This document shows positions 40,797 through 59,385 of a stretch of DNA of 64,000 nucleotides, piece after piece (the stretch's first letter is position 1; every line of letters begins with the position of its first letter). The translations under genes were made by a program, and so were the position numbers. This stretch comes from a virus. Below the pieces are notes generated by a model. It searched no databases, had not been told where the DNA came from, and saw only the letters and a list, made by a program, of their open reading frames with translations. The stretch is taken from IMG/VR virus record IMGVR_UViG_3300031669_000001, positions 126,001 to 190,000 of that record. The stretch is one strand, 5' to 3'.

Positions 40797-40815
40797 GACT
40801 TGAAAAGGAAAAATA

Positions 40816-41394: not shown

Positions 41395-41405
41395 TAAGGA
41401 TAAAA

Positions 41406-41621: not shown

Positions 41622-41628
41622 ACAGACG

Positions 41629-42903: not shown

Positions 42904-42911
42904 GAATTTAA

Positions 42912-45578
42912 ATGACGATTGATTACACCTTCACAGTTCGATCTATAAACGCTGGTTCATTCATCGTTGGTCAGACGTACACCATTCAAAATATAGGCAC
43001 AACCGATTTCACTTCTATCGGCGCAAGTGCGAATAATAATGGCGTAACATTCGTTGCATCAGGCGTTGGAACTGGAACAGGTACAGCATTTTCTACGATT
43101 ATCGTACCTGAGGATGGCACAGACATAACAAGCACTTCGCTTACATTGTCAGGTAGAGGATCTCTTAATTGGGGAGAAGCTGTTCAACAAAATTCTATCT
43201 CGATGTTGGAAAATTTCGCAGGACCTACAAGTCCTCTAAATCCGATCTTAGGTCAAGCCTGGTTTGATACAACGACTGGAAATTTAACGATCAATGATAG
43301 TTCCATCCCAACTGGGCCTCATTGGAATGAAGTTGCATATACTGCAGACGTCGCATCAAACACTGGTGTAACAGGACCATTTACCGTTGGTAATCCAATC
43401 GCTCCTACAGATGCTGTAAATCTGGGATATTTAGAAACTTTCCCAGGTGTATCAGGTCCATTCTTAGTCGGTGATCCTACTAACCCTCTCGACGCAACTA
43501 ACGTACAGTATGTAAACACATACTTTGCGCCTATCGGTGGAGTACTGAATAGCTTCACAGTAGGTGCTCCAATTGGACCTACCGATGCAGTTCAACTTCA
43601 GACTTTAAATCAATATGCATTCATAAACGGCAGCACTTCAGAAATCTTTGACGTTCAAGCCCCGACCGGTCCGACAGGTTTTGCAGGCCCTGCTATTCCA
43701 TTGGCATTTGCCGATGCAAGATACATCTTAGCAGCCAGTGGTACCGTACGTGCAGAGCTCAAGAGCATTATAGCAACCGTTGCCTCTAATTCCCTTACAT
43801 TTGGAATTAAGACTGGTCAAACTGTAGATTTCCGTTCAACGAATTATGATGATGGTACTATCACTCTGCTCAGCGCTGCATCAAATATCGTCGCTACTGT
43901 TCCATACACCGCAACTTTAGGAGCTGCAAATGGTTTTAACAGATTGTTCATAGGCGCTATCAACAATGGTGGTGTGATGGAAGTTGCAATTTGTAACACT
44001 ACAAATCCAGAATTGTTAGATGAAGATGAGTTGATCTCAACGCAAGCTTTGCTTGGAACACACTCGATAAACACTTTTAACGCTCCTATATCTGGAAGTG
44101 GATATACTTCTAACTATTATCCAAATGTTCCACTCTCTGGTGGATCTGGAACTGGAGCATTAGCAAATATAACAGTTTCAGATATATCAGCAGGTTATTC
44201 AACTATTGCTTTTTCTCCAGCAATAGCCCCGACGACAGCTTTAAACTTGCAAGCTGGTCTTTATTCGATTGAGATTTCTGTAAATGGTGGAGCCTCTACG
44301 GCATACTCGGTAAATGCGACAGGTGGAGCTGCTTCTGGACTGTCTCTAACTAGTGGTGGATCTCTTTACACTCCAGGAACTTACAGCAATGTACCTCTTG
44401 TTTATGTTACTCAACCAACTTCACCGAAGATCGGTGGTACAGGTATAACTGCTACAATCGTAGTTGGAGGTACAGGTGTAGTCACAGGCATAAATGTAAT
44501 ATCAACGCCAGGTTCTGGCTATGCTGCTGGTGATGTTTTAACTGCACCAAGTTTACCTCCAATTGGCACAGGCAGTGGATTCACGGCTACCATCACATCT
44601 GTAACAGGAAGCGATACTATGACAAGTCTAGTCGCTTTGATGAATGCTCAACTCGGAGCTGCTGCTGCTGCTGCTACCACAACATCAAGTGGATTCAAAG
44701 TTACTAGCCCAACGTTAGGAACTAACAGTTCTTTATCTATAATTGTTCCAGCTTCATTAGGTGCTGGAGCCGATTTAATTGCATCGATTGAAGCTTCAAA
44801 AACCGTTACATACACCAATGTTCAAACTGCTGGAATAACAGGTGTATCTAGCGTTTTGATTTCACCACAGACAACAGGCGGAAATCAAGGTTCGGGTTAT
44901 GCAATTGGAAATTCACTGACAACAGCTGCAGCTAACATTGGTGGAACAGGTGCAGGATTTAGCGTCACTGTTGCATCTGTTAATACAGGCTCAAATGTTG
45001 CAAATACATGGTACTCAGCTACTGCAAGAACTAATGTAGCATATAGAATAGTTGGGTTTATAGAACTCACTGAATCTCCAGGCGTATGGTCTTCAAACCC
45101 ATCATTAATTCAAGGTGCTGGTGGTTTGAATATGATACCGTACGCTACACCAGTGATTGTGCCAAATCAGCTATTGGTTCAACCTGGTGGTTACGCGGTA
45201 GCTAATAGCGGTGCTATACAAGGCCATGCAAATGTGATGGCTGAGTTGGCTAATTTTAGAATTGGTCAAAGCGGTACTTATACGATTGAAAGCGCATTGG
45301 CTTCTACTGCCCACACTGTTACATCACAGATTTATAAGAATGGTGTAGCGTACGGCAATTACAACACTTTAACAGGTGCAGGCGCTGGTAATTATAGAAG
45401 TGCAGTGTTTTATGAAAATTTGCTATTTTCTCTCGGAGATACAATTCAAATATTCGGTGAAGATCATTCAGGCGGTGATTACACCTATTACACTGCAACA
45501 GCTCAAATGATCATTTATGCTCTCAATTCATCAATATTAGCATTTCCTAGTGCGTTAAGTGTTGGAGTACGTTTATGA
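42912..45578 (+). CDS. Tail fibre, 888 residues, paralogous N-terminal adaptor
   Basis: Residues about 10-58 are a GTTDFT-IGA module (FIVGQTYTIQNIGTTDFTSIGA). Residues about 63-120 match the adaptor of the neighbouring fibre (STSLTLSGRGSLNWGEAVQQN ... LGQAWFDT). Three F-x-V-G-x-P-x-x-P-T-D-A-V repeats follow (about 156-236). The rest is Gly/Thr/Ser/Ala-rich beta repeat, and the C-terminal 200 residues look like a jelly-roll tip. The two-fibre arrangement with a common adaptor suggests competition for, or stacking at, one baseplate site. Confidence 0.72.
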   Translation: MTIDYTFTVRSINAGSFIVGQTYTIQNIGTTDFTSIGASANNNGVTFVASGVGTGTGTAFSTIIVPEDGTDITSTSLTLSGRGSLNWGEAVQQNSISMLENFAGPTSPLNPILGQAWFDTTTGNLTINDSSIPTGPHWNEVAYTADVASNTGVTGPFTVGNPIAPTDAVNLGYLETFPGVSGPFLVGDPTNPLDATNVQYVNTYFAPIGGVLNSFTVGAPIGPTDAVQLQTLNQYAFINGSTSEIFDVQAPTGPTGFAGPAIPLAFADARYILAASGTVRAELKSIIATVASNSLTFGIKTGQTVDFRSTNYDDGTITLLSAASNIVATVPYTATLGAANGFNRLFIGAINNGGVMEVAICNTTNPELLDEDELISTQALLGTHSINTFNAPISGSGYTSNYYPNVPLSGGSGTGALANITVSDISAGYSTIAFSPAIAPTTALNLQAGLYSIEISVNGGASTAYSVNATGGAASGLSLTSGGSLYTPGTYSNVPLVYVTQPTSPKIGGTGITATIVVGGTGVVTGINVISTPGSGYAAGDVLTAPSLPPIGTGSGFTATITSVTGSDTMTSLVALMNAQLGAAAAAATTTSSGFKVTSPTLGTNSSLSIIVPASLGAGADLIASIEASKTVTYTNVQTAGITGVSSVLISPQTTGGNQGSGYAIGNSLTTAAANIGGTGAGFSVTVASVNTGSNVANTWYSATARTNVAYRIVGFIELTESPGVWSSNPSLIQGAGGLNMIPYATPVIVPNQLLVQPGGYAVANSGAIQGHANVMAELANFRIGQSGTYTIESALASTAHTVTSQIYKNGVAYGNYNTLTGAGAGNYRSAVFYENLLFSLGDTIQIFGEDHSGGDYTYYTATAQMIIYALNSSILAFPSALSVGVRL

Positions 45579-45919
45579 GTTATTATATCTTAGTTGATTC
45601 AAGTTCAAATCAAATAAATGGACTTTATTCTGATCTGCCGGGTTATCCTTTAATTCCTGCTGACGCTATCAAAATCAGCGACGCTGATGCAAAGACACTT
45701 ACTGCTGGTTTTTCTAATTACAAATTTGTAAATGGAAGCATCATTGAATCTCCACTTGGACCAACTCCAGGTAATTATAATCGTGATAGAGCAGCGGCTT
45801 ATCCACCAATCACAGATTATCTGGATGGAATAGTTAAGGGAGACGCAGCTCAAGTTAAAGCTTACATCGATGCTTGCCTGGCAGTGAAGGCAAAATTTCC
45901 TAAACCAACAGGAGCTTAA
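45575..45919 (+). CDS. Tail-fibre-associated small protein
   Basis: 114 residues, ATGA overlap with the fibre. The C-terminal half has RAAAYPPITDYLDGIVKGDAAQVKAYIDACLAVKAKFPKP. The pattern R-x-x-x-Y-P-P-x-x-D-x-L-D, with K-x-[KR]-[YF]-P-K at the end, is a frequent tail of phage fibre or fibre-assembly proteins. N-terminal half MSYYILVDSSSNQINGLYS has the usual Y/N-rich start of such proteins. Likely chaperone or fibre tip partner. Confidence 0.65.
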   Translation: MSYYILVDSSSNQINGLYSDLPGYPLIPADAIKISDADAKTLTAGFSNYKFVNGSIIESPLGPTPGNYNRDRAAAYPPITDYLDGIVKGDAAQVKAYIDACLAVKAKFPKPTGA

Positions 45920-45921
45920 AC

Positions 45922-46320
45922 ATGGATCATATCTTTATAGAGATGGCTAACGGTTCAAATTGGTTGATAAACAATATGTCTCTTGGTTTAGCAGGCAAAT
46001 GTTTCTCTCTTCTTCTGATAGTGTGGATGATCATTGAATTCATCAAAGCACAGCGAGATCCAAAGAGTCCTATCGACCTGAATGATTTATTTGTAGATTC
46101 CTCTGGCAAAATTGGTGGTAGCAAGATGCGCCTTAACATGGCATTTATCGTGACTACTTGGGTTCTCATCTACTATACCTTGCAAGGTCAACTGTCAGAA
46201 TGGTTGTTTGGCGCATATCTTGCAGCGTTTGTTTACGATAGATTGAATTCAAGAAACACTGCAGTTTCTTCAAATTCTTCACCTGATCCGACTACACCAG
46301 CACAACCACCAGCTCAATAA
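45922..46320 (+). CDS. Small membrane protein, possible holin
   Basis: 132 residues with three hydrophobic helices at about 20-41, 71-88 and 92-107. An acidic/Gly loop lies between the first two (IDLNDLFVDSSGKIGGSK) and the C-terminus is Pro/Ser/Thr-rich. The segment DLFVDSSGKIGGSKMRLNMAFIVTTWVLIYYT resembles a phage family of small membrane proteins often placed near lysis genes. Location at the end of the late fibre operon fits lysis timing, but the endolysin is elsewhere (58515-59231). Confidence 0.5.
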   Translation: MDHIFIEMANGSNWLINNMSLGLAGKCFSLLLIVWMIIEFIKAQRDPKSPIDLNDLFVDSSGKIGGSKMRLNMAFIVTTWVLIYYTLQGQLSEWLFGAYLAAFVYDRLNSRNTAVSSNSSPDPTTPAQPPAQ

Positions 46321-46323
46321 ATA
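46316..46323 (+). promoter_or_regulatory. Late promoter-like AATAAATA
   Basis: AATAAATAACG, overlapping the previous stop codon, 22 bases before the ATG at 46346. Confidence 0.45.
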
Positions 46324-46345
46324 ACGTATCACAATATAAACCTAT

Positions 46346-46978
46346 ATGACACCCAATAAATCTCCCTTTTTAGTATTTCAACATCTCATAGAGCCAGAAG
46401 TTAGCGATCAGATCGCAGCAGAAGTAAGAGTAGAACCGCTCAAGAACGATGATGGAGTGCTTCAAGCAACTGAGCGATTTCATTCAGAGGCTGAGAAGAT
46501 TCTCTTTGAGAAGTTTCAGCCTCTTATCCCTGAGCTTGAAAAACACTATACAGGTTTTAAGTATCGTGGAACAGAACATCTTCTTTTCCAACAATTCCCC
46601 GTGACAAATGGAAAACCTGCTGAAGAACCTCACTGTGAGAACGCTGTCTTCAAGAGAAAGCGCTGGTTGAGAGTTAAAGACCGTGATCTGACTGGAGTTC
46701 TATGGCTTAAAGATTATCATGAGACGCCTCCATTTGATCTGAAGACTCAAGTGTTAGGTGGGAAGCTTGAATTTCCAGTCTATAACTTTGGATTCCAAGC
46801 TCAAAAGGGAACGTTGGTAGTCTATCCGGCGTGTGAACGCTTCATATCTCTGACATCTGCGATCTTAGTTGGTGAACTTCAATGTGTTCGATTCCACATC
46901 TGTGGTGAAGGTATCTGGCTTTATCAGCCAGAAGGATACCCAGGAGACTTCAGAACTTGGTTCACAGACATAGTTTAA
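46346..46978 (+). CDS. 2OG-Fe(II) oxygenase-like double-stranded beta-helix protein, active site degenerate
   Basis: 210 residues. The order of elements follows prolyl-4-hydroxylase-like 2OG oxygenases: PHCEN (94-98) where H-x-D is expected, LTGVLWLKDYHETPPFD, LGGKLEFPVYNFGFQAQKGTLVVYP, then CERFISLTSAILVGELQCVRFHI. His96 is present but Asp is Glu98, the distal His position holds Ser168, and the usual Gly-x-Arg is Gly-Glu-Leu. It may therefore have lost classical activity or use another metal arrangement. 2OG enzymes are common in T4-type environmental phages. The function of this one is unclear. Confidence 0.55.
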   Translation: MTPNKSPFLVFQHLIEPEVSDQIAAEVRVEPLKNDDGVLQATERFHSEAEKILFEKFQPLIPELEKHYTGFKYRGTEHLLFQQFPVTNGKPAEEPHCENAVFKRKRWLRVKDRDLTGVLWLKDYHETPPFDLKTQVLGGKLEFPVYNFGFQAQKGTLVVYPACERFISLTSAILVGELQCVRFHICGEGIWLYQPEGYPGDFRTWFTDIV

Positions 46979-47003
46979 TCGAATTTCTACAGATGGATGC
47001 TAA

Positions 47004-47033
47004 AAAGAGGAAACATTTTGATGTTTCCTCTTT
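47004..47033. terminator. Two-way transcription terminator
   Basis: A perfect 13-bp stem (AAAGAGGAAACAT / ATGTTTCCTCTTT) with a TTTG loop, a T-rich tail on the plus strand (CGTTTT) and a run of A before the stem, giving U residues on the minus strand. It lies between converging operons ending at 46978 and 47074. Confidence 0.85.
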
Positions 47034-47073
47034 CGTTTTGGAGCTAATTTCTTGGACTAATATAAGCAGCTTC

Positions 47074-47297
47074 TCACTTCACTCTACCTAACTTATCCGT
47101 CAATTTTTGAAGAGCCTTGCTGATGATCTGATAGTTGGCATAGATCTTGTTAGCATGTTTTAAGCGCATAGTTGGATCTCTCATTGTTTTGAGGATTGAA
47201 AGCCCACGATGAACGCCAGCTAACATCTTCATGATGTCATCGATGCCTGCAAATTTGCAGGGACGACAGTTTCTTCGTTGAGTTCAGAGAATTTCAT
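47074..47297 (-). CDS. Small leader-bearing paralog read across a -1 frame shift
   Basis: ATG overlaps the previous stop (ATGA). In the zero frame it stops after 22 residues (MKFSELNEETVVPANLQASM). A -1 shift at A_AAT_TTG (near 47250) instead gives 74 residues continuing AGIDDIMKMLAGVHRGLSIL ... ANYQIISKALQKLTDKL. That product aligns along its whole length with the neighbour at 47294-47509: DDIMKMLAGVHRGLSIL matches DEILKMFDAARRGISLL, and DPTMRLKHANKIYAN matches DPVQRKKHASAIFKN. The heptamer is the centre of the palindrome CCTGCAAATTTGCAGG. Either programmed frameshifting or a disabling/assembly indel. L-N-E fits the prohead-protease pattern. Confidence 0.6.
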
Positions 47298-47509
47298 TCT
47301 TCCACAGGCTCCGTAAGTCTCATCAACATACCTTTGATCTTATTCAGATTTTTGAAGATCGCTGACGCATGCTTCTTACGTTGAACAGGATCTTTGATCC
47401 TGTTTAAAAGAGAGATACCTCTACGAGCTGCATCAAACATCTTAAGGATCTCGTCGACTGTCACATCTTTTGGAATCTCTGTCGTTTCCATAATGTCATT
47501 AAATTTCAT
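47294..47509 (-). CDS. Small leader-bearing helical protein
   Basis: 71 residues, MKFNDIMETTEIPKDVTVDE, then a helical hairpin (ILKMFDAARRGISLLNRIKD, KKHASAIFKNLNKIKGMLMRL). I-M-E-T matches a gp21-type cut site. It overlaps both neighbours by ATGA. Not recognised. Paralogous to the gene at 47074-47297, so the pair arose by tandem duplication. Possibly an abundant internal head protein or a small injected effector. Confidence 0.7.
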   Translation of the reverse strand: MKFNDIMETTEIPKDVTVDEILKMFDAARRGISLLNRIKDPVQRKKHASAIFKNLNKIKGMLMRLTEPVEE

Positions 47510-49002
47510 TCCTCATCCACCTCTTCAATATCGTAGATCTCACTTTCAGGGCGATCTCCGTGGTTTGTGTTATCGTCATCTCTAGGAACTATAACTGGAA
47601 GACCTAAAGCTTGTAGCGCATTTCTACCAATCAATACTTCATACTTCATGCTTGATCGATTATTTAAGGTGAATTCGATTTGGTTGAGTCTAATGTCGCG
47701 CATCGTTACGTCAAGCTTGACGACAGGTCTGCGAACAGATTCACCGATGCTTGCGTGGCGGATCTTAACCGTCTTGAAGACGGGCACCTTGTAAGTAACG
47801 TCTCCGCGTGTAAACTTTACCCAGTTGCCTTCAACATCAACGCTGTCAACGTGAAGAGAGCAATATTTTGCACCTGTATCGATACGAGCTTCTACCTCGC
47901 CTGTAATGCGATTGATAGACACCATCTCTGTTTCACCAATCGTGTCTTGAGATATTGTAGGTTGAGTTGTAGGTGCTTCATCCTTAACAGGCTCAACAAC
48001 AGATTCATCTCCATTTACTACTGGAGCTTCGGGTGCTTTTTCTGCTGAAGTTCCAGCGACGTATTGAATTATCATCTTTGCTAGATCTCTGTCAGGCCAA
48101 TTCAATTGGATGTTCTCAAGACCGGGCGATCCGTTAACCTCAAGTACGATGATCTCTTTATCTTCTGTGATGAGGTAGTCAATAGCGCAGAAGTTACAAC
48201 CAAACAGTTCAACGATGCGTCTAGCGATCGCCATCTCATCTTCAGACGGTTCATATTTTTCTGTTTCAGAACCTAGGTGAGAGTTTGTTCTAAATTCATC
48301 CTTTGTCTTTGGCTGACCACGCAAGTTTGCAGCTAACATTTCATTGCCGATCATGATGATTCGAGCAGAACGTTCATGCTTGCAGAATGCCTGAAGCATA
48401 AAGTCAAGTCCTTCTTTAGACAAAAGCTGAGCGACTGATACCAAGGATGAACGACTGTCAACCTTCATGACACCAATGCCGTGTGTACCGCGAAGAGTTT
48501 TGATAACGAATGGATAGGTTATCTTTTTTGCTGCCTCAAGATTGTTGACTACGGTTTCTATCTCTTCTAAGCCTTGAATCATGACGCTGTATGGAGTCTT
48601 GATGCCAGCAGAGTTAAGTAAGATTTGAGTCATCAACTTGTCATTGCAGAGCTCCATGCTTTCTGGACTGTTGACCATGTAAGCACCTTGCTTCTCAAGT
48701 CTCTTGAGAATTCCAAGCTTGATGAGTACGTGATATTCATTGAGACGTGGAATGATTGCTGTCTCTCTGTCAACGACTACGGGTACTAACTTTCTTTCCT
48801 CGGCGTCAAGCTTCTCAACGATGTAAACTGAGCTTAACAATTCAAAATTTTCTGGTTGACTTCCTTGAAGATCTTCTACCAAAACAGCTTTCTTGATGTC
48901 TAGGATTTGAACTTCAATGCCGAGCACAGCGCCAGCTTCTTTCAATTTAACTGGAACAAAATTCTTAGGTTCAGCCGTAACGATAATAACTTTCTTGATC
49001 AT
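47506..49002 (-). CDS. RimK-like ATP-grasp ligase fused to RimB-like protease domain
   Basis: 498 residues. About 1-317 is a RimK-type ATP-grasp enzyme: NSPESMELCNDKLMTQ, YPFVIKTLRGTHGIGVMKV with Lys168, GCNFCAIDYLI and IIVLEVNGSPGLE (Glu288, Asn290). RimK adds glutamates to the ribosomal protein S6 C-terminus. A Pro/Glu/Ala-rich linker (about 318-358) joins to a COG4067/RimB-type aspartyl-protease-like domain: EARIDTGAKYCSLHVDSV (DTG 375-377), RRPVVKLDV and MKYEVLIGRNAL. Ligase and protease of opposite effect in one chain is unusual. Possible roles are a polyglutamate tag on a host or virion protein. The start overlaps the upstream stop by four bases. Confidence 0.88.
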   Translation of the reverse strand: MIKKVIIVTAEPKNFVPVKLKEAGAVLGIEVQILDIKKAVLVEDLQGSQPENFELLSSVYIVEKLDAEERKLVPVVVDRETAIIPRLNEYHVLIKLGILKRLEKQGAYMVNSPESMELCNDKLMTQILLNSAGIKTPYSVMIQGLEEIETVVNNLEAAKKITYPFVIKTLRGTHGIGVMKVDSRSSLVSVAQLLSKEGLDFMLQAFCKHERSARIIMIGNEMLAANLRGQPKTKDEFRTNSHLGSETEKYEPSEDEMAIARRIVELFGCNFCAIDYLITEDKEIIVLEVNGSPGLENIQLNWPDRDLAKMIIQYVAGTSAEKAPEAPVVNGDESVVEPVKDEAPTTQPTISQDTIGETEMVSINRITGEVEARIDTGAKYCSLHVDSVDVEGNWVKFTRGDVTYKVPVFKTVKIRHASIGESVRRPVVKLDVTMRDIRLNQIEFTLNNRSSMKYEVLIGRNALQALGLPVIVPRDDDNTNHGDRPESEIYDIEEVDEE

Positions 49003-49829
49003 AGTAAACCCCGTTTATTCATCTCGATGTATGCAGATCTTTTTATCAATAAGCAAGGCTTGTCGATCCATATTTCATGATCGCCTGTGCCTTTTGAGAA
49101 TGATTCTATTCTGATAGAGTGAAAACCATTTGCTTCTGGTTCTAACTTTTCCTCTATGTAACGCTCAGTGCTTACAACGTGTCTAGCCAAAAGATCTTTC
49201 ATGATCTTTGCCTGTTCTACAGATAGTGATTCTCCAGAAGAAAGATTCTTTTCTAAAACTTTTCTGTCTGACTCTAAAACTTTATCGATCTGTCCAAGAG
49301 CCCTCTTAAATTCACCAAAAGTTTTTGGCTCGTGCTTCTTGATCTTTGTGTCTGTGATTTGAGCTAAACCTTCTTGAACATTTTCTAACCATTCAATGAA
49401 GGTTTTGTTATCGACCCTATCGAAGCCTAAGCTCTTCTCAATGTCTTTGAAACTTCTATAGAAGGAGGGACCTGGAGCGATACCAATCCTAGTTCCATCA
49501 AATGGTATCATGACGTAAACGTCATCACCGCCGAAAGTGCGATCATAATTTGTGTAAGCTTTGATAAAGCGTGATCTACTAGGCATCTTTCCCCATGAAG
49601 GAATTTCCTTGATCATCTTGTCAACCCAGAACTTTGAACGTTCTTCCTTTATTTCAGGAGTGACCATCATCATGTCAGGACCAGAATCTTGCCTGAAGAA
49701 TGGATTTTTCTTGGCGACAACGTAAGAATTTTTAGCTTTACTTTTTAACAGCTCAAGGAACTTACTCTCAGTAAGTTCCTTGCGATGCTCTATTGGTGCA
49801 GCTTCTTCAATAAGAGACCTTAATTTCAC
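48999..49829 (-). CDS. Leader-bearing protein, possible ADP-ribosyltransferase
   Basis: 276 residues. N-terminus MKLRSLIEEA resembles T4 Alt/IP capsid-targeting leaders (MKTYQEFIAEA) and holds I-E-E-A. Downstream are KNPFFRQDSG (Arg46), PSWGKMPSRSRFIKAYTNYD (Ser84/Ser86), DDVYVMIPFDGTRIGIAPGP and near the end GTGDHEIWIDKPCLLI (Glu252). The order Arg...Ser...Glu, with PSW..xPxRSxx and a V-x-x-P-F-D-G strand, recalls R-S-E type ADP-ribosyltransferase-like proteins of large myophages. This is a pattern judgement, not a demonstrated homology. T4 Alt is a packaged ART, so the combination is suggestive. Confidence 0.5.
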   Translation of the reverse strand: MKLRSLIEEAAPIEHRKELTESKFLELLKSKAKNSYVVAKKNPFFRQDSGPDMMMVTPEIKEERSKFWVDKMIKEIPSWGKMPSRSRFIKAYTNYDRTFGGDDVYVMIPFDGTRIGIAPGPSFYRSFKDIEKSLGFDRVDNKTFIEWLENVQEGLAQITDTKIKKHEPKTFGEFKRALGQIDKVLESDRKVLEKNLSSGESLSVEQAKIMKDLLARHVVSTERYIEEKLEPEANGFHSIRIESFSKGTGDHEIWIDKPCLLIKRSAYIEMNKRGLL

Positions 49830-50344
49830 TTTTTAGCTTTCTTGTCTTTAGCCTTCTTTGCTTCGTTTAAGTACCACGTTCCGGCCAATCGTTGCATCTG
49901 TTCACCGACTGACATCTTCGGTGGTGCGTAGAGTGGAGAGCTTTGTGCAGGTGGAACTGTTGGGTTTGGTGCGCCTGACGGAGAGATTAAAGGCGCCTCA
50001 GGTTCTGCTAGATTCACTGTAGGCTTTGGAATTTCTGGTGGAACATCTTGCTTCATCTCTGTAGATCCATCTGGCGCTACTGCTGGATGAGCTGTATCAT
50101 TGTTTATTTCAATGTCTATCAATTGAATTTCATTCTTCAATTGAGCGATGATTGCCAATTTATTTCTGTAAGAAATGACGGTTGTATTCAGAGCACGCAG
50201 CTTACCAATCATCTCAGCCCAGTATGCTAACACTGACATTTTCTCTTGATCTGTTCCAACAAAGTCGGGCGTAACCAATGGGTGTTCCATCTCAACTATC
50301 GGTTCCATCTCAACTATCGGTTCAATCTCGATCATCGGATCCAT
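49826..50344 (-). CDS. Unknown acidic/proline-rich protein
   Basis: 172 residues from MDPMIEIEPIVEMEPIVEME, the ATG preceded by GAGAAGATA after the upstream stop. The opening is a tandem repeat of the unit I-E-P-I-V-E-M-E, encoded by near-identical 24-base units (about 50285-50335). A helical middle (50-95) and a Pro/Ala-rich linker follow, then a Lys-rich end (NEAKKAKDKKAKK). Not recognised. An extended scaffold or internal head role is possible. Confidence 0.5.
   Translation of the reverse strand: MDPMIEIEPIVEMEPIVEMEHPLVTPDFVGTDQEKMSVLAYWAEMIGKLRALNTTVISYRNKLAIIAQLKNEIQLIDIEINNDTAHPAVAPDGSTEMKQDVPPEIPKPTVNLAEPEAPLISPSGAPNPTVPPAQSSPLYAPPKMSVGEQMQRLAGTWYLNEAKKAKDKKAKK
50285..50335. repeat. 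Tandem 24-base coding repeat
   Basis: Two nearly identical 24-base units with a third partial unit (core AACTATCGGTTCCATCTC) encode I-E-P-I-V-E-M-E. They can change copy number by slippage. Confidence 0.7.
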
Positions 50345-50351
50345 TATCTTC

Positions 50352-51026
50352 TCACAATTTGTCATAAAATTCACAAGCCCTTTCTGATAATTTCAACAGC
50401 AATTCGTCATCCAAGGTCTTTCTAAAGATCATCGGCAGGTGATTTTCGACGCCCATCATGATGACCAGCTTTTCAATATTTGTTCCAAACATTTCATTGT
50501 GAGCTGTCGCGTAGAATGCAGCTTGAATCCAATAGTCACCAATTTCATCGGCAGATTTAACTCTACTCGAAGTCTTGTAATCGACTATCGCAAGGTTCCC
50601 CTGATATTCTGCTACTAAATCACATCTACCAGCTATGCCTAAAACGTCAGAATAGAGTACTACCTCTTGTCCGAATACTTTATTTATCTTCCTGACCTCA
50701 AGGCGTAGACTACTGAAGATTTTAACGTGTTCAGGTGGAAATGTTTCAAGCTGTGGATCTTCATTTCGAAGGTACCGTTCAAGCATTAAGTGAGTATTTG
50801 TTCCGCGATTACAAGCTGCTGCAGAAATTTCATTTGCTTTCTTATTACCAACTCGTGCCTTCCAAGCGTTCAAGACGTCCTTCTTTTCTGTCTGGAGCGT
50901 ATGTCCGAGCACAGTGGTGATGCTTGGATAGTAACGATCGCCAGGAATTTGATAGACCCTTTTCCCCTCAACGCTGAGAGTTTCAGCTTCTTGATAGTTA
51001 AAGGTGTCTAACGCAAGTTCAATCAT
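50352..51026 (-). CDS. Cas4/RecB-like PD-(D/E)XK exonuclease
   Basis: 224 residues. PYPSITTVLG-like start (YYPSITTVLGH, about 32-42). Nuclease motifs are RGTNTHLMLERYL (His79), IAGRCDLVAEYQGNLAIVDYKTSS (Asp136, Asp149-x-Lys151) and a downstream Gln/Tyr motif YWIQAAFYATA. This is the RecB-nuclease type shared by Cas4 and phage exonucleases, although the four-cysteine iron-sulphur ligands of Cas4 are absent. It is expressed in the late operon, which is unusual for a replication enzyme. A role in DNA maturation, packaging clean-up or host DNA attack after injection is possible. Confidence 0.8.
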   Translation of the reverse strand: MIELALDTFNYQEAETLSVEGKRVYQIPGDRYYPSITTVLGHTLQTEKKDVLNAWKARVGNKKANEISAAACNRGTNTHLMLERYLRNEDPQLETFPPEHVKIFSSLRLEVRKINKVFGQEVVLYSDVLGIAGRCDLVAEYQGNLAIVDYKTSSRVKSADEIGDYWIQAAFYATAHNEMFGTNIEKLVIMMGVENHLPMIFRKTLDDELLLKLSERACEFYDKL

Positions 51027-52372
51027 TCTTTATCGTCGCTCGACTCAATTTTCCTGATACCTTTTACCTTGATGTCGTCTTCATTCTTATCGTGCCACTT
51101 TTCATATTCAGCTTGATTCTTGAAAGTTTTACGCCATGGAATTGATTTAGGACCTTTTACGCCGTATGCTTCAACTCTTCCTTTGATTGTCTCTTTCACA
51201 TCTTTTGATTCTTTGACTTCTTCATCATCAGCCGCAGGCTTTCTTTCTGGCGCTGCTGTACCGATCAATTCTTTGACGTCAGTTGAGAGCATAAGCACAC
51301 CATCTGGAGAGCCTACAGCCTTAACTAGAATGCTAGAACCGCGCGGTGAGAACACATACTTTTTAGCTGGATCTTCTGTTTCATCACGAACTACTGTGAT
51401 CGAGTGATTGTTGATTCCCTTGATCAGCTTTTCTGTTTCTTCTGAACCAAGAGTAATGGTAAGTCCCTTTGAGCTGATTGTTAAATTTTCTTTGTCAGAA
51501 GAGAATGTCCAGTCTGCATGCTCCTCATTGATGTTGATCTTCATTTCTTCTTTCACCCCTTTGTCAAGTTCTGTTTTTGGTGTTTCATGTCCCGCTTTTT
51601 CCGTTGCTGCATTCTGTTCTGCTTGCTTTTCAAAGTCACTCGCTCTACGAATGAACATCTTGAGAGCACTTTTCATCGTTGCGTTCTTCTGCATGGCTTC
51701 TGCAGCTGACTTGATTCCCTTGATTATTTCATTTCTATTTGCATTACGAGCCAATGCGATCTCTGGTACGCCAAGATCAATGATGGCGTGATAAACCATA
51801 AGTTGAGTAGGTGTTGTAAAGCGACTTTCAATGCTTGTCGTACTTTCAAGAAGTTCAAGCGTAACAAGTTCGCCGTAGCTCAACGATTCACTTCCTTGAA
51901 ACTGACGATCGGGAATATCTTCAACCTCTTCTTTGCCGTGTTTGGGTCCATATACACGTTGATCGAGTGAAGATGAACCATCATCTTGTTCATCTTCAGG
52001 ATTTTTTTCATCTCCACCTTCTTCTGGCCATTCAACATCAACGATTTCATACTCCTTCGATAGCTCATTTAGAACTTCTTCGATGTCATCTATCTCACCA
52101 AGCTTCGTAGCTAATGCCTTTTCAAAAGCTTCTGCTTGTTCTGCATTCACATAGACTTTAACTATCTTACCATCATCTGTCTCTAGACCGAAGGTAACAG
52201 TATCTACCTCGTCAAATTTGACAGAGCGATCAAGCTTATTGATTACAGCAGTTTCATCGGCGGCAAGATTGTCAGATTCATCAGATGCGTTAGGAACATT
52301 TGTATTTGTTCCACCGTCGCCCTCCAATAATTTAAAGTCTTTAGCGATTTTAGTTAGGGAATTATACAGCAT
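51023..52372 (-). CDS. Large acidic protein with leader, unknown
   Basis: 449 residues from MLYNSLTKIAKDFKLLEG; the ATG follows AGGAGACAAAAG. L-L-E-G fits prohead-protease cleavage. Three parts are visible: an acidic first third, a helical middle (about 170-265, QLMVYHAIIDLGVPEIALARN...) and a C-terminal beta-rich half with two similar stretches (DWTFSSDKENLTISSKGLTITLGSEE and KYVFSPRGSSILVKAVGS). No known family was recognised. The acidity and leader fit a scaffold-core or internal head protein. Confidence 0.6.
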   Translation of the reverse strand: MLYNSLTKIAKDFKLLEGDGGTNTNVPNASDESDNLAADETAVINKLDRSVKFDEVDTVTFGLETDDGKIVKVYVNAEQAEAFEKALATKLGEIDDIEEVLNELSKEYEIVDVEWPEEGGDEKNPEDEQDDGSSSLDQRVYGPKHGKEEVEDIPDRQFQGSESLSYGELVTLELLESTTSIESRFTTPTQLMVYHAIIDLGVPEIALARNANRNEIIKGIKSAAEAMQKNATMKSALKMFIRRASDFEKQAEQNAATEKAGHETPKTELDKGVKEEMKININEEHADWTFSSDKENLTISSKGLTITLGSEETEKLIKGINNHSITVVRDETEDPAKKYVFSPRGSSILVKAVGSPDGVLMLSTDVKELIGTAAPERKPAADDEEVKESKDVKETIKGRVEAYGVKGPKSIPWRKTFKNQAEYEKWHDKNEDDIKVKGIRKIESSDDKE

Positions 52373-53648
52373 CTTTTGTCTCCTCATCTTTGTTCACTTC
52401 TTGTTTCTTTGGTTTCATCCATTCAGGTTCTTTGAATCTTTTTGGTGAAAAGTCCTTCACCTTCTTCTTGATCAACTTACCATTTCTGATGGTGAATCGA
52501 CCCTTCTTCGTAATTTGATTTGGTGCCATCTTATTCAGCTTGTACAATCCACCCAAAGCGTTGGAAATATCTTGCGCTGTATTTGGATGGCCAGATTGAG
52601 AGTTGATGTTTGGACCACTAGGATTCAAGATAGCATTGCCACCTGTGGCAACTGCTCCAGTTCCTACTGCTCCTCCATCTGCAGTCTCGTGAATCGATCC
52701 AGTTCTTGCAAATCCAATGACTCTTTGGGAAACGCTACCTAATCTATTCACCATCACTAAGTTAGACAGCCTTCTAAGGTGAGGGATAAGCTTTGATCCA
52801 GGATCACTTTGCATCATAAACATCAACGCGTCATTGATAGCTTTCTGTTTAGCGGAGATGTTGATCGAGTCCCACTTATAAAGAGTACGAAGAATGCTGA
52901 CGAAGTAACTGCTCTGTAGACCAAATGTATGTTGTAATAAAAGAACATTAGCAATCACATCATGCCAATTTACAGCTTCAGGTGTTGTAATTGGAACTTG
53001 CATGGTTTTTTGAACTCTTGAAGAAGATACTCTTGAAGACATCTTTGCCAAAAGCTTTGCATCTTCAGCTTTCATTCTCTGCTTGATTTCAGAGTCATTT
53101 GAATAAAATAAGATGCGACCCCAGAAATTAAGATCACTCATGCTCGATGAGAATTTTGTAAGCTTTGAATGATTGTGATCGTTAATCAACATCAAACCCT
53201 TTATATCTTGAACCTTTAACATCACCAACGCCGCAAGATAATTTGCAAAGAAGGCATTTCTAACATCAACATAAGTGATATTGTTTATCTTGTTTAGGTT
53301 AATTCCCTCTTCAAGAGAAGCTAAGAATTTGTGTTCTTTAACGTTTAAAGTTCCGACTTTAGCACCTTTACCTATCTCTATCTCTACCTGTTCTTTTCCA
53401 CGATTATCTTTTGGAGCGTTCATTCTTGCTGAAGAAACGTAGTGCGCGTTCGGTTCAGTCATCAGCTTTCCGTCTCTTAATTGATTGACGGATACTCTGT
53501 CTGGGTTTAATTGATTATCCATAGCGTACTGATGCGCTGCAGCTCTAAGCTCATTTTGTGTAAAAGGCGTCTTCTTTGAAACTGAAAGTATCTTCTTTTG
53601 AGAACCTTTCAGACCAACTTCTATTTGAAGAGTATATCTGTCTGTCAT
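52362..53648 (-). CDS. Unknown protein with basic C-terminus
   Basis: 428 residues. N-terminal alpha/beta part (MTDRYTLQIEVGLKGSQKKI...) and a central helical part (about 110-310) with VRNAFFANYLAALVMLKVQD and WHDVIANVLLLQHTFGLQSS. A Gly/Asn/Ala-rich linker is followed by a strongly basic tail (ITKKGRFTIRNGKLIKKKVKDF). Not recognised, and it has no leader. Its start overlaps the ligase-like stop by four bases. Confidence 0.6.
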   Translation of the reverse strand: MTDRYTLQIEVGLKGSQKKILSVSKKTPFTQNELRAAAHQYAMDNQLNPDRVSVNQLRDGKLMTEPNAHYVSSARMNAPKDNRGKEQVEIEIGKGAKVGTLNVKEHKFLASLEEGINLNKINNITYVDVRNAFFANYLAALVMLKVQDIKGLMLINDHNHSKLTKFSSSMSDLNFWGRILFYSNDSEIKQRMKAEDAKLLAKMSSRVSSSRVQKTMQVPITTPEAVNWHDVIANVLLLQHTFGLQSSYFVSILRTLYKWDSINISAKQKAINDALMFMMQSDPGSKLIPHLRRLSNLVMVNRLGSVSQRVIGFARTGSIHETADGGAVGTGAVATGGNAILNPSGPNINSQSGHPNTAQDISNALGGLYKLNKMAPNQITKKGRFTIRNGKLIKKKVKDFSPKRFKEPEWMKPKKQEVNKDEETKDAV

Positions 53649-55150
53649 TTTCCTTCTCCGAACATCGTATCTAATTGCTTCTTGAAGAAAATTTCAACAA
53701 GATCGTACATGTCTGTTGCTCTACGAACGTCGTTTAACATCTCTATCAACGATCTACGGGCTTCAGCGAAGACCATGAGAGTGCGCCTTTTGATTTCTTG
53801 TGTGTACTTGATGGTTTGACCATTCTTTAATTCTAAGTGATAATCATCTGCACCGGATTTAAACGCGTCAAGCGCCTCCTCAACATCATCTATAGCTGCA
53901 ATGTAGATCGCTTGAATCTTGCGTCTAACGCTAGCAAATTGGAGTTGATTTAAACTTTTCGTAACCTTGTTGATCGTGTCTTCTCTGTCATCACCTTTAA
54001 ACTTTTCAAGAACCTTCTTTGTCTGTGAAGGCATGTCTGCGTTTTCAAGACCGAATAATTGAATTGACCTGAGTCTAGCTTCACCGACTATACCACCTCT
54101 AGCTTCGATCGGCATGTTAGGATCTGCTGTAGTGATTCTTCCAGAGATTGCTTTTCTTGCTTGGTAATTAAATTTGTTGATCTCAAGAAATACATCCTTA
54201 TCAACGATCTTGAACTTTTCACCAGTCTTAGGATCTGTAAAGATGATGCCTTCTATTCCCTTGTAAACGCCTTCATCATCGCTAGTCATTCCACGAAGAG
54301 ATGGTTTTTGCTTGTAGATCAATTCTAGCAGCTTTTTCTTGATAGGAAGTTTGAAGTCAGTCATGATGTTTTCTTCAACTTCTTTCTTAGCGTCGGAAAG
54401 ATCTCTACTACGATCTTTCATCAACTCAAAGTTAGTAAGGTCTCTTCCCTCAGCTCTAGCGGTTTCATTTTCTTTCTTCAAGAAAGCTTTTAGCTCTCCG
54501 AGTTCCTTAACGAAATTTACCTTCTTGATCTCAGACGATGGAACTACGTCAGATACAGTGAACTTCCACTCGGATACGTTGGGGGTTCTAACGATTGTTA
54601 TTCCATCTGTTGTATCCGAGAAGACAGTTCTGACTGTGAAGGTCTTATCACCAATCATCTTCATGAGAGTTGCAAGCTTCTTTTGATCAGGTTCAACCGA
54701 TGGATCATCGCCTGGAAGCATCTCTAGCAACGCGATGTAGTTGAGATTGTCTTTACCGTAGAACACAGTATTAGGTTGAGGGCCATAGATAATTTCCAGA
54801 TTGATCGATTCACCTGGAACTAAGACTTCTAGAAAGTAACCTTCTGCTTTTTCAAGAACAGCATGAGCAGCTCTGAACCCATCGTACGCTGAATTTTTAG
54901 GAAAGTCTGATTCTTTGTAGAATCTGCGTCCACCCTTCTGTTCACGAGATGTAAACAGTTCACCATCTTCATCTAGGCCAACTCGCAAGTTAGCACCATC
55001 CAGCTTTTGAACGGCTTCTAATTCATGTAATTTTTCAATGACGCGAAGAAAAGCCTCGATGTCAAGATCTTCAAGATGAGCGATCCCGTAATCGGATGTT
55101 CCTTCTGCTAGAAAGAATTTTGAGGAGTAACGTTTAAAATTGAGCTTCAT
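53645..55150 (-). CDS. RNA/DNA ligase-like covalent nucleotidyltransferase with capsid-targeting-like leader
   Basis: 501 residues. Nucleotidyltransferase motifs in order: AVQKLDGANLRVGLD (Lys49 of KxDG, motif I), INLEIIYGPQ (Glu119, motif III), KGIEGIIFTD (motif IV, about 300) and GEKFKIVDKDVF (motif V, about 312). This is the ligase / mRNA-capping nucleotidyltransferase superfamily. The C-terminal 170 residues are helical and unlike known ligase OB domains. N-terminus MKLNFKRYSSKFFLAEG carries L-A-E-G, a gp21-type cut site. First gene behind a late promoter. A late, perhaps packaged ligase may repair host RNA or DNA breaks at infection onset; the real substrate is unknown. Confidence 0.8.
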   Translation of the reverse strand: MKLNFKRYSSKFFLAEGTSDYGIAHLEDLDIEAFLRVIEKLHELEAVQKLDGANLRVGLDEDGELFTSREQKGGRRFYKESDFPKNSAYDGFRAAHAVLEKAEGYFLEVLVPGESINLEIIYGPQPNTVFYGKDNLNYIALLEMLPGDDPSVEPDQKKLATLMKMIGDKTFTVRTVFSDTTDGITIVRTPNVSEWKFTVSDVVPSSEIKKVNFVKELGELKAFLKKENETARAEGRDLTNFELMKDRSRDLSDAKKEVEENIMTDFKLPIKKKLLELIYKQKPSLRGMTSDDEGVYKGIEGIIFTDPKTGEKFKIVDKDVFLEINKFNYQARKAISGRITTADPNMPIEARGGIVGEARLRSIQLFGLENADMPSQTKKVLEKFKGDDREDTINKVTKSLNQLQFASVRRKIQAIYIAAIDDVEEALDAFKSGADDYHLELKNGQTIKYTQEIKRRTLMVFAEARRSLIEMLNDVRRATDMYDLVEIFFKKQLDTMFGEGK

Positions 55151-55177
55151 CTGTTATAACCATAGAGATTCTATCTC

Positions 55178-55185
55178 TATTTATG
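55178..55185 (-). promoter_or_regulatory. Late promoter CATAAATA
   Basis: Minus strand CATAAATAGAGATAG, 27 bases before the ATG at 55150. It drives the whole operon down to the terminator at 47004. Confidence 0.65.
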
Positions 55186-55206
55186 TAATACAGCCAAAGC
55201 TCAATC

Positions 55207-55518
55207 CTAGATATGCTTTAACGCAGCTGGTGGTGCAGCCGGGGTGTCGAATGCTTTGAACCTATTTTCAAGCTCAGACAGCAATCCACGGATGGCTGCT
55301 TCATACTTGAAAACTTCTTCTCTGGCTTCACCTATTTTGACTGTCCACTTTTGATGGATGTTTACGAGCTCTCTGATGTCACTAGGTAGATCCTTTGCAA
55401 CATACGTTTTGTTGTTGAAAGTGATTGTTGGTTCTGGTTGGACAGCTTCAGCAACCTTCTGCTTTTTAACTGCAGGCTTTTTAACTACTGGCTTTTCAAC
55501 TTGTGTTTCTTTTTTCAT
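55207..55518 (-). CDS. Small Lys/Val-rich protein
   Basis: 103 residues. A repetitive start (VEKPVVKKPAVKKQK) is followed by TITFNNKTYVAKDLPSDIRELVNIHQKW and a coiled-coil-like end. The pattern I-x-[FY]-[ND]-[NG]-K-x-Y-x-x-x-D-L-[PS] then a helix recurs in small phage proteins related to DUF6447. No function is known. It lies 22 bases downstream of the helicase, so it belongs to the replication run and not the late operon. Confidence 0.55.
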   Translation of the reverse strand: MKKETQVEKPVVKKPAVKKQKVAEAVQPEPTITFNNKTYVAKDLPSDIRELVNIHQKWTVKIGEAREEVFKYEAAIRGLLSELENRFKAFDTPAAPPAALKHI

Positions 55519-55539
55519 TTATCTTCCTTGTGGTTATGG

Positions 55540-56916
55540 TTAAACTTGAAACGGTAAATTATTTATATCGAGTTTAGGTGACTTTGGGCCTGATGGTTTT
55601 GGAGCAGTTGCATTTTCTGGGCTTTGAATGTCACCGTCACCTTTTTTCTTGATATAAGAAGAGATAGACTTTGATAATCTTGCAGGACTGTTTTCCTCTT
55701 CAAGATTTTCCAGACAGAGGTTCTTCTGATTAAATTTGAGCATGTAGAAGTTTCCTACACCATTTGAAGAACGAGTCTTCAATAGCTTGAACATCATCTC
55801 TCCACGAGCCTTCATCTGTTCATTTTGGATGATGGCTACCAGGTTATCTGTCGTGTTGATCTTGGAGATACCACCTGCAATGTTAGCTTGACCGATGTCT
55901 TGAATGTTCTCAACTTGAAGAGCACTTCTGTTCAACTGTGAAGCTGTGATCATAATGAGGTTGAATTCATTGGCGATAGAACGAAGCTCTTCAGAAATGA
56001 ATTTGTCACGAATAAAGGTGTTCTCTGCAGAGATAGATTGAACCGAACACATCAGATCCAAGTAATCAACGACGATGAAGTCAGGCAAGTAACCATTGAC
56101 GATCTCGAACTCTTTCAGGTACGCCCTGATGTGATTTGCATTTGTCGAGGATTCTGGCATCCGCTTGATGTGAAGAGCACCGTGATCTGCTTTTTGCTGA
56201 TTGATCTTGACTGTTGCTTCTGTGATATTCCTCATCAATTCCATTTGTTGGAGCCCAGAGAACATCGAGTCAAATCGTTTTGCCACAACTTCTTCAGCGA
56301 GCTCCAACGTAATGAACACACCATTGAGGTGCTGCTTCATCAAGTTCTTGGCTAGGTTACCCATCGTAAGAGACTTACCGACACCAGGCGGTGCCGCGAA
56401 GATGATCATCTCTTTCCGATTCAATCCTCCACCGAGATACTCATCGAGCTTGAACCAACCAGTGGAGACGGCATTGTTGATAGTCAGAAGTCTAAGACGA
56501 GCTTCTGGATCAAAGAAGTAATCCAGACCGATGTTACGAGACAAACCGACCGTGATTGCATCCTTGATGAGTTTCTCTATCTCACCGTACTTTCCTTCAT
56601 CAAGAAGTTTTGGTGAAGCGTAGATCGCTTCTTCGATAGCTTTTTCACGGCAGAATCGTTCTAGCTGATTCTCCGCGTAGGTTATCTCTTGACGAGTCAG
56701 AGATGGTCTAAGCTCTACCTTCTGACCCGTCTCAGCAGAGATTTGATCAATTGTAGGTGGAGTCTTATACTCATCAAAATAATTCTTGACGAACGTGACT
56801 ACCTTCTTTATCTTATCATCGAAGTACCGGGTTTGTAGAATTGGTGATACCTTCACAAACAGCTCTTGAGAACTGACGAGGTAGGACACCAACAAGCGTT
56901 GTTTTTCTAATTCCAT
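55540..56916 (-). CDS. 41: Replicative DNA helicase gp41 (DnaB-like)
   Basis: 458 residues versus 475 in T4. RecA-type core: STGWFKLDEYLGGGLNRKEMIIFAAPPGVGKSLT (Walker A APPGVGKS, 175-182), LELAEEVVAKRFDS, DFIVVDYLDLM (Walker B), LIMITASQLNRSAL and QANIAGGISKINTTDNLVAI. The N-terminal domain is helical as in other DnaB-type enzymes. It unwinds the fork with the gp61 primase and clamp. The start overlaps the macro-domain gene by one base. Confidence 0.93.
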   Translation of the reverse strand: MELEKQRLLVSYLVSSQELFVKVSPILQTRYFDDKIKKVVTFVKNYFDEYKTPPTIDQISAETGQKVELRPSLTRQEITYAENQLERFCREKAIEEAIYASPKLLDEGKYGEIEKLIKDAITVGLSRNIGLDYFFDPEARLRLLTINNAVSTGWFKLDEYLGGGLNRKEMIIFAAPPGVGKSLTMGNLAKNLMKQHLNGVFITLELAEEVVAKRFDSMFSGLQQMELMRNITEATVKINQQKADHGALHIKRMPESSTNANHIRAYLKEFEIVNGYLPDFIVVDYLDLMCSVQSISAENTFIRDKFISEELRSIANEFNLIMITASQLNRSALQVENIQDIGQANIAGGISKINTTDNLVAIIQNEQMKARGEMMFKLLKTRSSNGVGNFYMLKFNQKNLCLENLEEENSPARLSKSISSYIKKKGDGDIQSPENATAPKPSGPKSPKLDINNLPFQV

Positions 56917-57524
56917 TATACGTTTCCAATTTGTTGTAGGTCTCTTGGTGGTTCTTTACATAGAGCCAAGTGACGTGATTGAGCTTCTTGCCAAGTTTTC
57001 GGTTCAGAATAATTGATGAAAACGTGGTCATAAGCTTGGCGCATTTGATGTGCGCAGATTCTTGGAGGTACTTTGCCGACTCCAGTTCCCAGACCAGAGA
57101 CGACTATGGATGAAATGTTAGGATTGCTTAATAGTTCATTGAAGATTGCAAGAGATGCCAGGTAGACATTCACAGAGTTGCTTCCCAAGATCATGGGCAC
57201 TCTCATGGTAGGTGCAGAGATTAGATAAGGCCAGCGCTCTGATAGAGTAGGTAGCGTCAAAACTTTACCGACTAAAAGTTCTTTTTCAGGAAGTTCGTCA
57301 ATCATCTCACGTAGTCTCTCCTGAACGTGCCAACCTAACACCATTGAAATGGAATAGTCTAAGCCTCCATCCATAAATCCAAAGCTGTTGGCGGGGCTTA
57401 CCATTGCATCTGCTGGATAATTGAAGATTGAATCACATTGAATCTCAACATTTTTGTAACCTTCAAATTCTATCTTCCATGCATCTATTAAGTCTGCGTT
57501 GAAGTCTGCCAATATAATTTTCAT
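56916..57524 (-). CDS. Macro-domain (ADP-ribose-binding) protein
   Basis: 202 residues. Macro-domain elements: an initial beta strand (KIILADFNADLIDAW), DAMVSPANSFGFMDGGLDYSIS (about 39-60) and SSIVVSGLGTGVGKVPP with the phosphate-binding loop. The set resembles macro domains that bind or hydrolyse ADP-ribose. The GLGTGVGKVPP loop differs from classical GxGxGxFG loops, with Lys in place of the usual aromatic. Lies between helicase and primase, with overlaps on both sides. Possible functions are removal of ADP-ribose from proteins or DNA, or sensing of NAD-derived signals. Confidence 0.82.
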   Translation of the reverse strand: MKIILADFNADLIDAWKIEFEGYKNVEIQCDSIFNYPADAMVSPANSFGFMDGGLDYSISMVLGWHVQERLREMIDELPEKELLVGKVLTLPTLSERWPYLISAPTMRVPMILGSNSVNVYLASLAIFNELLSNPNISSIVVSGLGTGVGKVPPRICAHQMRQAYDHVFINYSEPKTWQEAQSRHLALCKEPPRDLQQIGNV

Positions 57525-59231: not shown

Positions 59232-59333
59232 TCTAGACTCCCTTAAGTTACGCAGGCATAAATCATACCTACTATGCTTCTGAGATCATCTCGGTGTACG
59301 GCCCTTTCCTTCGGTTAAAGTGAGATGACACAA

Positions 59334-59362
59334 TTTGGGGATCATAAAATTATGATCCCCAA
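59334..59362. terminator. Hairpin between unknown late gene and transglycosylase
   Basis: Inverted repeat of about 13 bp (TTGGGGATCATAA / TTATGATCCCCAA), 24 bases after the minus-strand stop at 59386. The 3' tail on the minus strand is only AAATTG, so termination may be weak. Boundaries are approximate. The rest of 59232-59385 holds no gene. Confidence 0.6.
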
Positions 59363-59385
59363 GATTTAGTTGCTACAGGTTTTTC

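Follow-up and report, generated by a model that had tools for sequence, protein, structure and literature searches.

The described systems closest to the locus reported here are the internal proteins IPI-III and Alt of phage T4, together with the protease gp21. According to PMC9026906, gp21 recognises an L/I-X-E motif, the N-terminal propeptide of Alt is removed by gp21, and a stretch as short as the first 10 residues of IPIII is enough to bring about packaging. In the T4 annotation gp24 is recorded as a target of gp21 cleavage, and Alt as a capsid component that passes into the host. The subject of this work is a set of proteins with short N-terminal leaders encoded in a 64,000-nucleotide stretch (the window, bases 126001-190000 of the 345,069-base virus record IMGVR_UViG_3300031669_000001), which belongs to a T4-type jumbo phage. 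As in T4, the locus combines a short leader, an L/I-x-E site, an S77-type protease gene and T4-type late-promoter-like cores; unlike in T4, the putative cargo is larger and different, including an RNA-ligase-like enzyme, and in relatives there are polyproteins with internal sites. Set against positions 4, 7, 8 and 10 of T4 IPIII, the leader register here is usually shorter (M-K-phi-x-x-phi-phi-E).

Three further systems are related. The ejection (inner-body) proteins of phiKZ and SPN3US are likewise head cargo of jumbo phages matured by a prohead protease, whereas the motif in phiKZ is S/A-x-E and the cargo here occurs in a T4-type (gp23/gp21) lineage (same passages of PMC9026906). Virion-associated ADP-ribosyltransferases (ARTs), NUDIX and macro proteins share the idea of packaged NAD-related enzymes in myoviruses; the consulted part of PMC9503650 argues from fusion and neighbourhood, whereas the basis here is a putative cleavable leader. 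In Agrobacterium phage Atu_ph07, 29 proteins of the cluster of coding sequences (CDS) 31-76 were found in virions (PMC6102473); the likeness lies in the same locus after the helicase, the N-termini of gp054-gp062 and the virion cluster. In the titles and abstract openings of the open-licence papers searched, neither a survey of capsid-targeting leaders in jumbo phages nor a packaged or injected RNA ligase was found. As far as this search reached, the kind of system is known (T4 capsid-targeting sequences), and what is new lies in how wide a range of cargo there is, in its RNA-ligase-like member, in the boundary rule and in the existence of polyproteins.

Judged from sequence comparison, the proteins listed below very probably carry T4-type capsid-targeting propeptides and form part of a large virion cargo. 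Each new late protein would be docked on the prohead core by its short N-terminal leader; in head maturation an S77 (gp21-type) protease encoded by the phage itself would cut after [LI]-x-E; the mature protein, often with Gly, Ser or Ala at its start, would stay in the head; and DNA and cargo would pass into the next host together. We infer these steps of docking, cleavage, packaging and injection. The window cargo would comprise the RNA-ligase-like enzyme and two partner proteins, a cytidylyltransferase-like enzyme and a retropepsin-like protein. The leader-bearing genes, referred to below by their coordinates, are as follows (a slash marks the putative cut).

14515-15147, plus strand: cytidylyltransferase-like enzyme (Pfam, motif score), leader MKLSQIFE/A (14515-14538), with CATAAATAG, core at -28.
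21613-22011, plus strand: frameshifted gene with N-terminus MFAFKTFLFE/S, ending before 22012; motif score below threshold.
22012-22521, plus strand: stand-alone retropepsin-like (PF05618) protein, leader MKLNEILNE/G (22012-22038); Pfam, motif and a relative.
47074-47297, minus strand: frameshifted tandem copy of 47294-47509, leader MKFSELNE (47274-47297); motif scored by hand.
47294-47509, minus strand: 71-residue protein, leader MKFNDIME/T (47486-47509); motif, and a relative with MKFNELIE/A.
48999-49829, minus strand: protein without a fold assignment, though with weak ART-like hints (phrog_12810), leader MKLRSLIE/E (49806-49829); site in residues 2-30 in 9 of 9, 5.5 expected.
49826-50374, minus strand: small protein, site IVE/MEHPLVTP, leader 50291-50374; all 5 of 5 distinct sequences have [LI]xE in this position.
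51023-52372, minus strand: partner protein, leader MLYNSLTKIAKDFKLLE/G (52322-52372); site in residues 2-30 in 17 of 20.
52362-53648, minus strand: partner protein, LEE/G site at residues 112-114 (53307-53315), after an N-terminal extension and before the core; from relatives.
53645-55150, minus strand: RNA-ligase-superfamily-like enzyme, leader MKLNFKRYSSKFFLAE/G (55103-55150); relatives, model and folds.

The evidence that carries this reading comes from relatives of the ligase-like protein. A ligase profile identified 56 loci in viral contigs, in which the folded core starts near [GSA]-[IL]-x-H-[LI]-E-D and is preceded by a hypervariable, almost unalignable leader. Within 8 residues of the core, [LI]-x-E was present in 38 of the 45 distinct N-termini; its distance to the core His was exactly three residues in 24 of them and four to eight in 14. 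The 45 are what remained after rows sharing the same core and 16-residue end had been merged, with start codons chosen by the analyst; L014, one row out of 57, did not fit the boundary pattern though carrying LLE/G. The site took the forms LAE, LTE, LLE, LSE, LFE, LHE, LME, LNE, LKE, LRE, IFE, ILE, IRE, ISE and IVE: P3 was Leu in 33 and Ile in 5, though the pattern also admitted Val and Met, 11 kinds of residue were found at P2, and P1' was Gly (28), Ser (5), Ala (2), Asp (2) or Val (1), the first three making up 35 of the 38. A rough independent-trial probability of 2e-41 for this conservation is far too small, since the sequences are related. In the close relatives L013-L016 and L019 the site was kept while the leaders diverged, which therefore indicates current constraint. 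Seven forms had no site: L028, L029/L030, L031, L039 and L068 start at the core, and L058 and L063 (LMD) have altered ends. Such a pattern would be expected from the evolution of a removable add-on that carries a protease site. In the AlphaFold model of the window protein, residues 1-20 were below a predicted local distance difference test score (pLDDT) of 50 and the fold began after them. The preliminary description of this DNA had proposed that leaders varying freely among relatives would speak against packaging; the ligase leaders do vary freely and the cleavage site is mostly kept, so that this was judged to be the wrong test.

Leader families were also compared with control families, using the first 30 residues of the longest open reading frame (ORF) and leaving out fused forms. 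Five leader families had the site in residues 2-30 in 68 of 80 sequences, against 36.4 expected by shuffling; eight control families, mostly replication genes and neighbours, had it in 47 of 184, against 45.7 expected, with the helicase family and that of 55207-55518 below the shuffled expectation. Two of the control families lie in the same block:

55207-55518, minus strand: small protein heading the block, no leader; [LI]xE in residues 2-30 in 1 of 19.
50352-51026, minus strand: PD-(D/E)XK exonuclease, no leader; [LI]xE in 5 of 32, 6.1 expected.

The 51023 core was preceded by LLE, LLE and LFE, and in more distant relatives by LFE, LAE, LNE and LGE; in the 49826 family IVE, LLE, LKE, LIE and LKE stood before xxH[PA]L[VI]TP; and in split relatives the 52362 core followed LEE, LDE or LQE, with LNQ in one. 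The close relatives of 48999 also had the site before the core, and in its model residues 1-8, ending at the Glu, were below pLDDT 50. Relatives of 14515 had LFE/K and LLE/A, and the 22012 gene had LNE/GLLDK where its one relative (MKLKIISE/G) had ISE/GLLDK.

Fusions of the ligase to either the 52362 or the 51023 core occur in many relatives and give chains of about 770 to 1,304 residues. At the ligase/52362 junction, read by eye, [LI]-x-E was found in 9 of 12 fused forms and V-x-E at about the same place in 3. The fused ligase/51023 loci numbered 14, of which two were duplicates, leaving 12 distinct proteins (one, L037, runs off its contig); in 10 of these a leader-like heptad (e.g. LIKSISE) lay about 22 residues past the ligase core, and four of the ten had a second heptad before the 51023 core. 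In these ten chains 14 of 15 heptads fell between the two cores, with 4.1 expected over the whole length. The heptads may be internal sites for the prohead protease. Several relatives thus have ligase and partners as a single polyprotein, and the chain would be divided at such internal leader-like sites.

A protease of the required type is encoded by the phage itself. The preliminary description had suggested looking for a gp21-type protease, and an S77 gene (L003:19213-19854, match E 8e-28) was indeed found adjoining head genes, its end 147 bases before the start of the window; a gp23-type major capsid protein is also encoded left of the window (E 8e-94), and T4-type tail and replication genes are present in it. 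In 14 contigs chosen from the 56 ligase loci, an S77 protease was found in 11, including all nine of at least 200 kb; the three misses were contigs of 134-190 kb. The nearest annotated relatives found, with protein identities of only about 20-35%, were Pseudomonas phage PA5oct and its kin, Sinorhizobium phage Phosso, Atu_ph07, Salicola phage SCTP-2, a Microcystis phage and an uncultured phage, and a megablast of window positions 40000-60000 against phages gave no match.

The T4-type late-promoter core is TATAAATA. Two such elements stand at the head of the block:

55177-55185, minus strand: T4-type late-promoter-like core CATAAATAG, upstream of the ligase gene.
55560-55567, minus strand: late-promoter-like TATAAATA, upstream of 55207-55518; in only 4 of 26 relatives.

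Searched as NATAAATA, the core preceded the ligase gene by at most 120 bases in 20 of 27 relatives tested (27 of the 56 ligase loci), with a background of 0.036 expected for each 120 bp. In the window, a TAAATA core lay at most 90 bases upstream of 11 of 59 genes, with about 1 expected; these included 14515, 21613, 55150 and 55518. The exact TATAAATA octamer was not enriched in the whole window (3 found, 2.2 expected) and a stricter pattern gave none, and only the position-specific tests with NATAAATA and TAAATA are informative on late promoters. A weak sigma-region-2 match, below the curated cut-off, was seen in gene 13677-14378. If the RNA-ligase-like enzyme is made late, as these cores suggest, cargo destined for the next cell would be a simpler explanation of it than a tool used in the current one.

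All eight N-terminal strings of the preliminary description are present in the window. Its common MK leader held for 14515, 22012, 47297, 47509 and 49829; the others (21613, 52372 and 55150) have only [LI]-x-E. A strict form of the leader, MK[LFVI]xx[ILF] followed by E within two residues, a pattern written after the leaders had been seen, occurred in 5 of 59 window genes, against 0.07 expected and in 0 of 500 shuffles. [LI]-x-E ending at residues 7-20 was found in 15 of 59 genes (6.9 expected, a count reached by 1 of 500 shuffles), 7 of these 15 being outside the earlier list; the bare motif is thus enriched in the window but common by chance, and alone means little. Two leader-bearing genes absent from that list are 49826-50374 and 52362-53648, the site being recognised in both by comparison with relatives. 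The start codon at 49829 is GTG. The frame at 47297 stops after 22 codons and continues in another frame as a paralogue of 47294-47509, and 47074-47297 is therefore regarded as a frameshifted tandem copy. The start at 22012 is an in-frame Met within the ORF 21613-22521; in the sole relative found (L081) there is a separate gene at this position, and the upstream gene ends in another frame with a TGATG overlap. From this arrangement the preliminary description was probably right to treat 22012 as a separate gene, with the 21613 gene frameshifted. Both frameshifted genes of this assembly, 21613-22011 and 47074-47297, are leader-bearing, and sequencing error or decay may be the cause.

A motif was trained on 16 N-termini of this phage, picked by eye outside the window. 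It marked 3 of 62 window ORFs, none of them in the training set; the starts at 22012 and 47297, scored by hand, also passed, and 21613, 52372 and 55150 failed. Left of the window it marked 13 of 29 ORFs of L002 and 4 of 29 of L003 (17 of 58 above threshold, a count that is partly the motif's own training set), as against 0 of 29 of L004. Two DNA patterns for the MK form gave 9 and 8 matches genome-wide (16 distinct places), and the reversed patterns 2 and 0. When the motif was applied to 64 T4 proteins, gp24 (MAKINELLRES) ranked first and Alt (MELITELFDED) second; the 64 were taken from 78 annotated features of a T4 stretch outside which the internal proteins lie, and cut, internal-start, joined and non-coding features were left out. 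Most of the sequence tests favour the proposed analogy with T4 leaders (the protease gene, the boundary site, the gp24/Alt match and the late-promoter-like cores); the bare [LI]-x-E criterion does not.

Cargo from left of the window would include ART-domain, NUDIX and transglycosylase-domain proteins. The leader MHLFKELLEM stands on a PF03496 ADP-ribosyltransferase exoenzyme-domain protein (L002:15618-16160, equal to G000:101618-102160; E 4e-12), and leader-like N-termini were seen on NUDIX, transglycosylase, phosphoribosyltransferase-domain and Sel1-repeat proteins (L002:7878-8276, L002:16147-16827, L003:6703-7509 and L003:11868-12608). The macro and NADAR domain proteins of the window (56916-57524 and 60018-60497) have no leaders, and therefore not all NAD-related enzymes of this phage are tagged. 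The ART-like enzyme of the preliminary description, 48999, could not be established as such: neither a Pfam match nor a significant Foldseek match was obtained, and its model (pLDDT 86) had its best VIA hit, at Z 5.2, to a protein of unknown function, with ART-fold rows at only Z 2.5-3. The L002:15618-16160 protein is a likelier Alt analogue than 48999. Relatives of 48999 in Atu_ph07 were found by profile.

Evidence on virions came from two relatives. In PA5oct, a block after the helicase (gp259 to gp243, genes taken as syntenic, counted by hand) had 12 of 17 genes annotated as detected by electrospray ionisation tandem mass spectrometry (ESI-MS/MS), against 93 of 445 genome-wide (p = 9e-6). 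An MK leader with a site, as in gp246 (MKIKDILVE/S, GTG start), was found in 5 of 89 MS-labelled proteins against 2 of 333 other ORFs (p = 0.006, the second of three patterns tried); the 'other' proteins are the analyst's ORF calls and not annotated genes, and four MS genes that span pieces are counted in neither class. In Atu_ph07 this locus, again following the helicase, contains nine genes in a row (gp054-gp062) with M[RK]WxQL[TNI]E N-termini, all of them inside the CDS 31-76 cluster, the numbering agreeing at gp70. These nine lie at L071:15694-23357 (bases 41,844-49,507) and have a YRG[MI] motif in the first 60 residues; five of the nine were run against Pfam and gave no ART match.

Several observations weigh against the packaging of leader-bearing cargo. 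The ligase homologues of Phosso and Atu_ph07 start without a recognisable leader, and that of PA5oct has neither a recognised leader nor an MS note; the PA5oct block demonstrably shares with the window only the ligase and the exonuclease. Bare [LI]-x-E, tried as a predictor of virion proteins, was rejected (13 of 89 MS-labelled PA5oct proteins against 48 of 333 others, p = 0.54). The motif score, again with the analyst's ORF calls as the other class, separated the PA5oct classes only weakly with the first start (4 of 86 against 2 of 337, p = 0.017) and with the best start (5 of 86 against 7 of 337, p = 0.07), and there was no shift in rank (Mann-Whitney U test, p = 0.83 and 0.75). On T4, alt.-1, uvsY and gene 30 also passed the motif threshold, and the known substrates gp21, gp22, gp23, gp67 and gp68 fell below it. 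Among the control families, primase (17 of 37) and 46346 (10 of 14) exceeded the shuffled expectation. In the 14515 family, 1 of 4 distinct relatives (one sequence, 2 loci) lacked the site; among the fused chains, L042 had no heptad and L037 a single, later one at residue 577. The three leaderless ligase relatives tested (L028, L029 and L058) all keep a late-promoter-like core. Low pLDDT is expected of any unalignable N-terminus, and hence the models lend weak support.

The identity of the ligase-like enzyme rests on its residues and its model. K49, D51, G52, E119, E300, G301 and K314 were invariant in 33 sequences, and we take these to be the KxDG lysine and motifs III, IV and V of ligases. 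Compared by VIA, the model matched a Naegleria RNA ligase (Z 10.4, root-mean-square deviation 3.3 over 191 residues), a Trypanosoma editing ligase (Z 9.8) and T4 Rnl1 and Rnl2 (Z about 9); for its C-terminal part, helical rows reached Z 9.7 without kinship. In Foldseek, RNA ligases were the top rows, none below E 0.001. Pfam RNA_ligase matched 22 of 33 family members at E at most 0.1 (best 2e-6) and not the window protein itself, which is therefore called only RNA-ligase-like. The data support the ligase-like enzyme named in the preliminary description, as a putative RNA-ligase-like enzyme with an adenylyltransferase-domain fold; the protease-like domain named there is likewise borne out, by the PF05618 match. 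A search of solved-structure profiles (query A4) gave one match, an augmin subunit, which was taken as coincidence. The same genome has two other RNA-ligase matches; the one examined, L003:2801-3898, is without a leader.

The enzyme may serve in the repair of RNA cut by host nucleases. Our tentative proposal, which we put at slightly short of an even chance, is that the capsid of this T4-type jumbo lineage comes preloaded with an RNA-repair complex. In this proposal a ligase-like enzyme with a leader and its two partners would be made late, separately or as one polyprotein, attach to the prohead core and be cut apart there by the prohead protease; arriving in the host with the DNA, they would mend host or phage RNA that nucleases cut at time zero. 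The leader would be a portable address tag spread over many unrelated proteins. If true, a sequence rule (hypervariable leader, kept [LI]-x-E, Gly/Ser/Ala core start, late-promoter core) would help to predict injected cargo of T4-type phages without proteomics; the RNA-ligase-like repair enzyme would be a candidate new class of cargo, made late and apparently for the next infection; and the polyprotein forms would extend the role of the prohead protease from trimming to the release of several enzymes per chain.

One other explanation is that the leaders do target the prohead core, and that the proteins serve assembly or DNA condensation without delivery to the host. In T4, some proteins of the core have a role in assembly and are for the most part lost once cleaved (PMC9026906), and 47294-47509 and 49826-50374 are small and have no family match; several leader proteins, by contrast, match enzymes (RNA ligase fold, ART, NUDIX, phosphoribosyltransferase, transglycosylase) with no obvious use in assembly, and we regard this explanation as unlikely. 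It is very improbable that the N-termini merely form ordinary amphipathic helices or serve to dock some other partner, with [LI]xE there by coincidence: a near-N-terminal [LI]xE does occur in about 1 in 7 PA5oct proteins (61 of 422), but the ligase site is kept while the surrounding leader changes, it adjoins the fold boundary, and the eight control families together show no excess. Least probable of all is that the leaders are a relic of a packaged ancestor, no longer functional in some lineages, as might be suggested by their loss in several relatives (L028-L031, L039, L058 and L068) and by the two frameshifted window genes, given that L013-L016 and L019 keep the ligase site despite diverged leaders.

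Apart from the packaging of leader-bearing cargo, some minor observations were made. The leaderless ligase relatives L028-L031, L039, L058 and L068 form a natural set for the study of leader function. PF05618 occurs twice in the window, stand-alone with a leader (22012-22521) and fused to an RimK-like ATP-grasp domain without one:

47506-49002, minus strand: RimK-like ATP-grasp and retropepsin-like PF05618 domain, no leader; Pfam and relatives.

Similar Y-x-GK start regions, homing-endonuclease-like by eye, were seen in 22936-23655, 27196-27888, L002:3138-3950 and L003:15727-16272; in Pfam, 22936 had no match and 27196 matched NUMOD3. Repeats of the SFVIGQTY..GTTDFT type occur in the long tail-fibre-like proteins 36448-40674 and 42912-45578, and also in L002:14578-15621.

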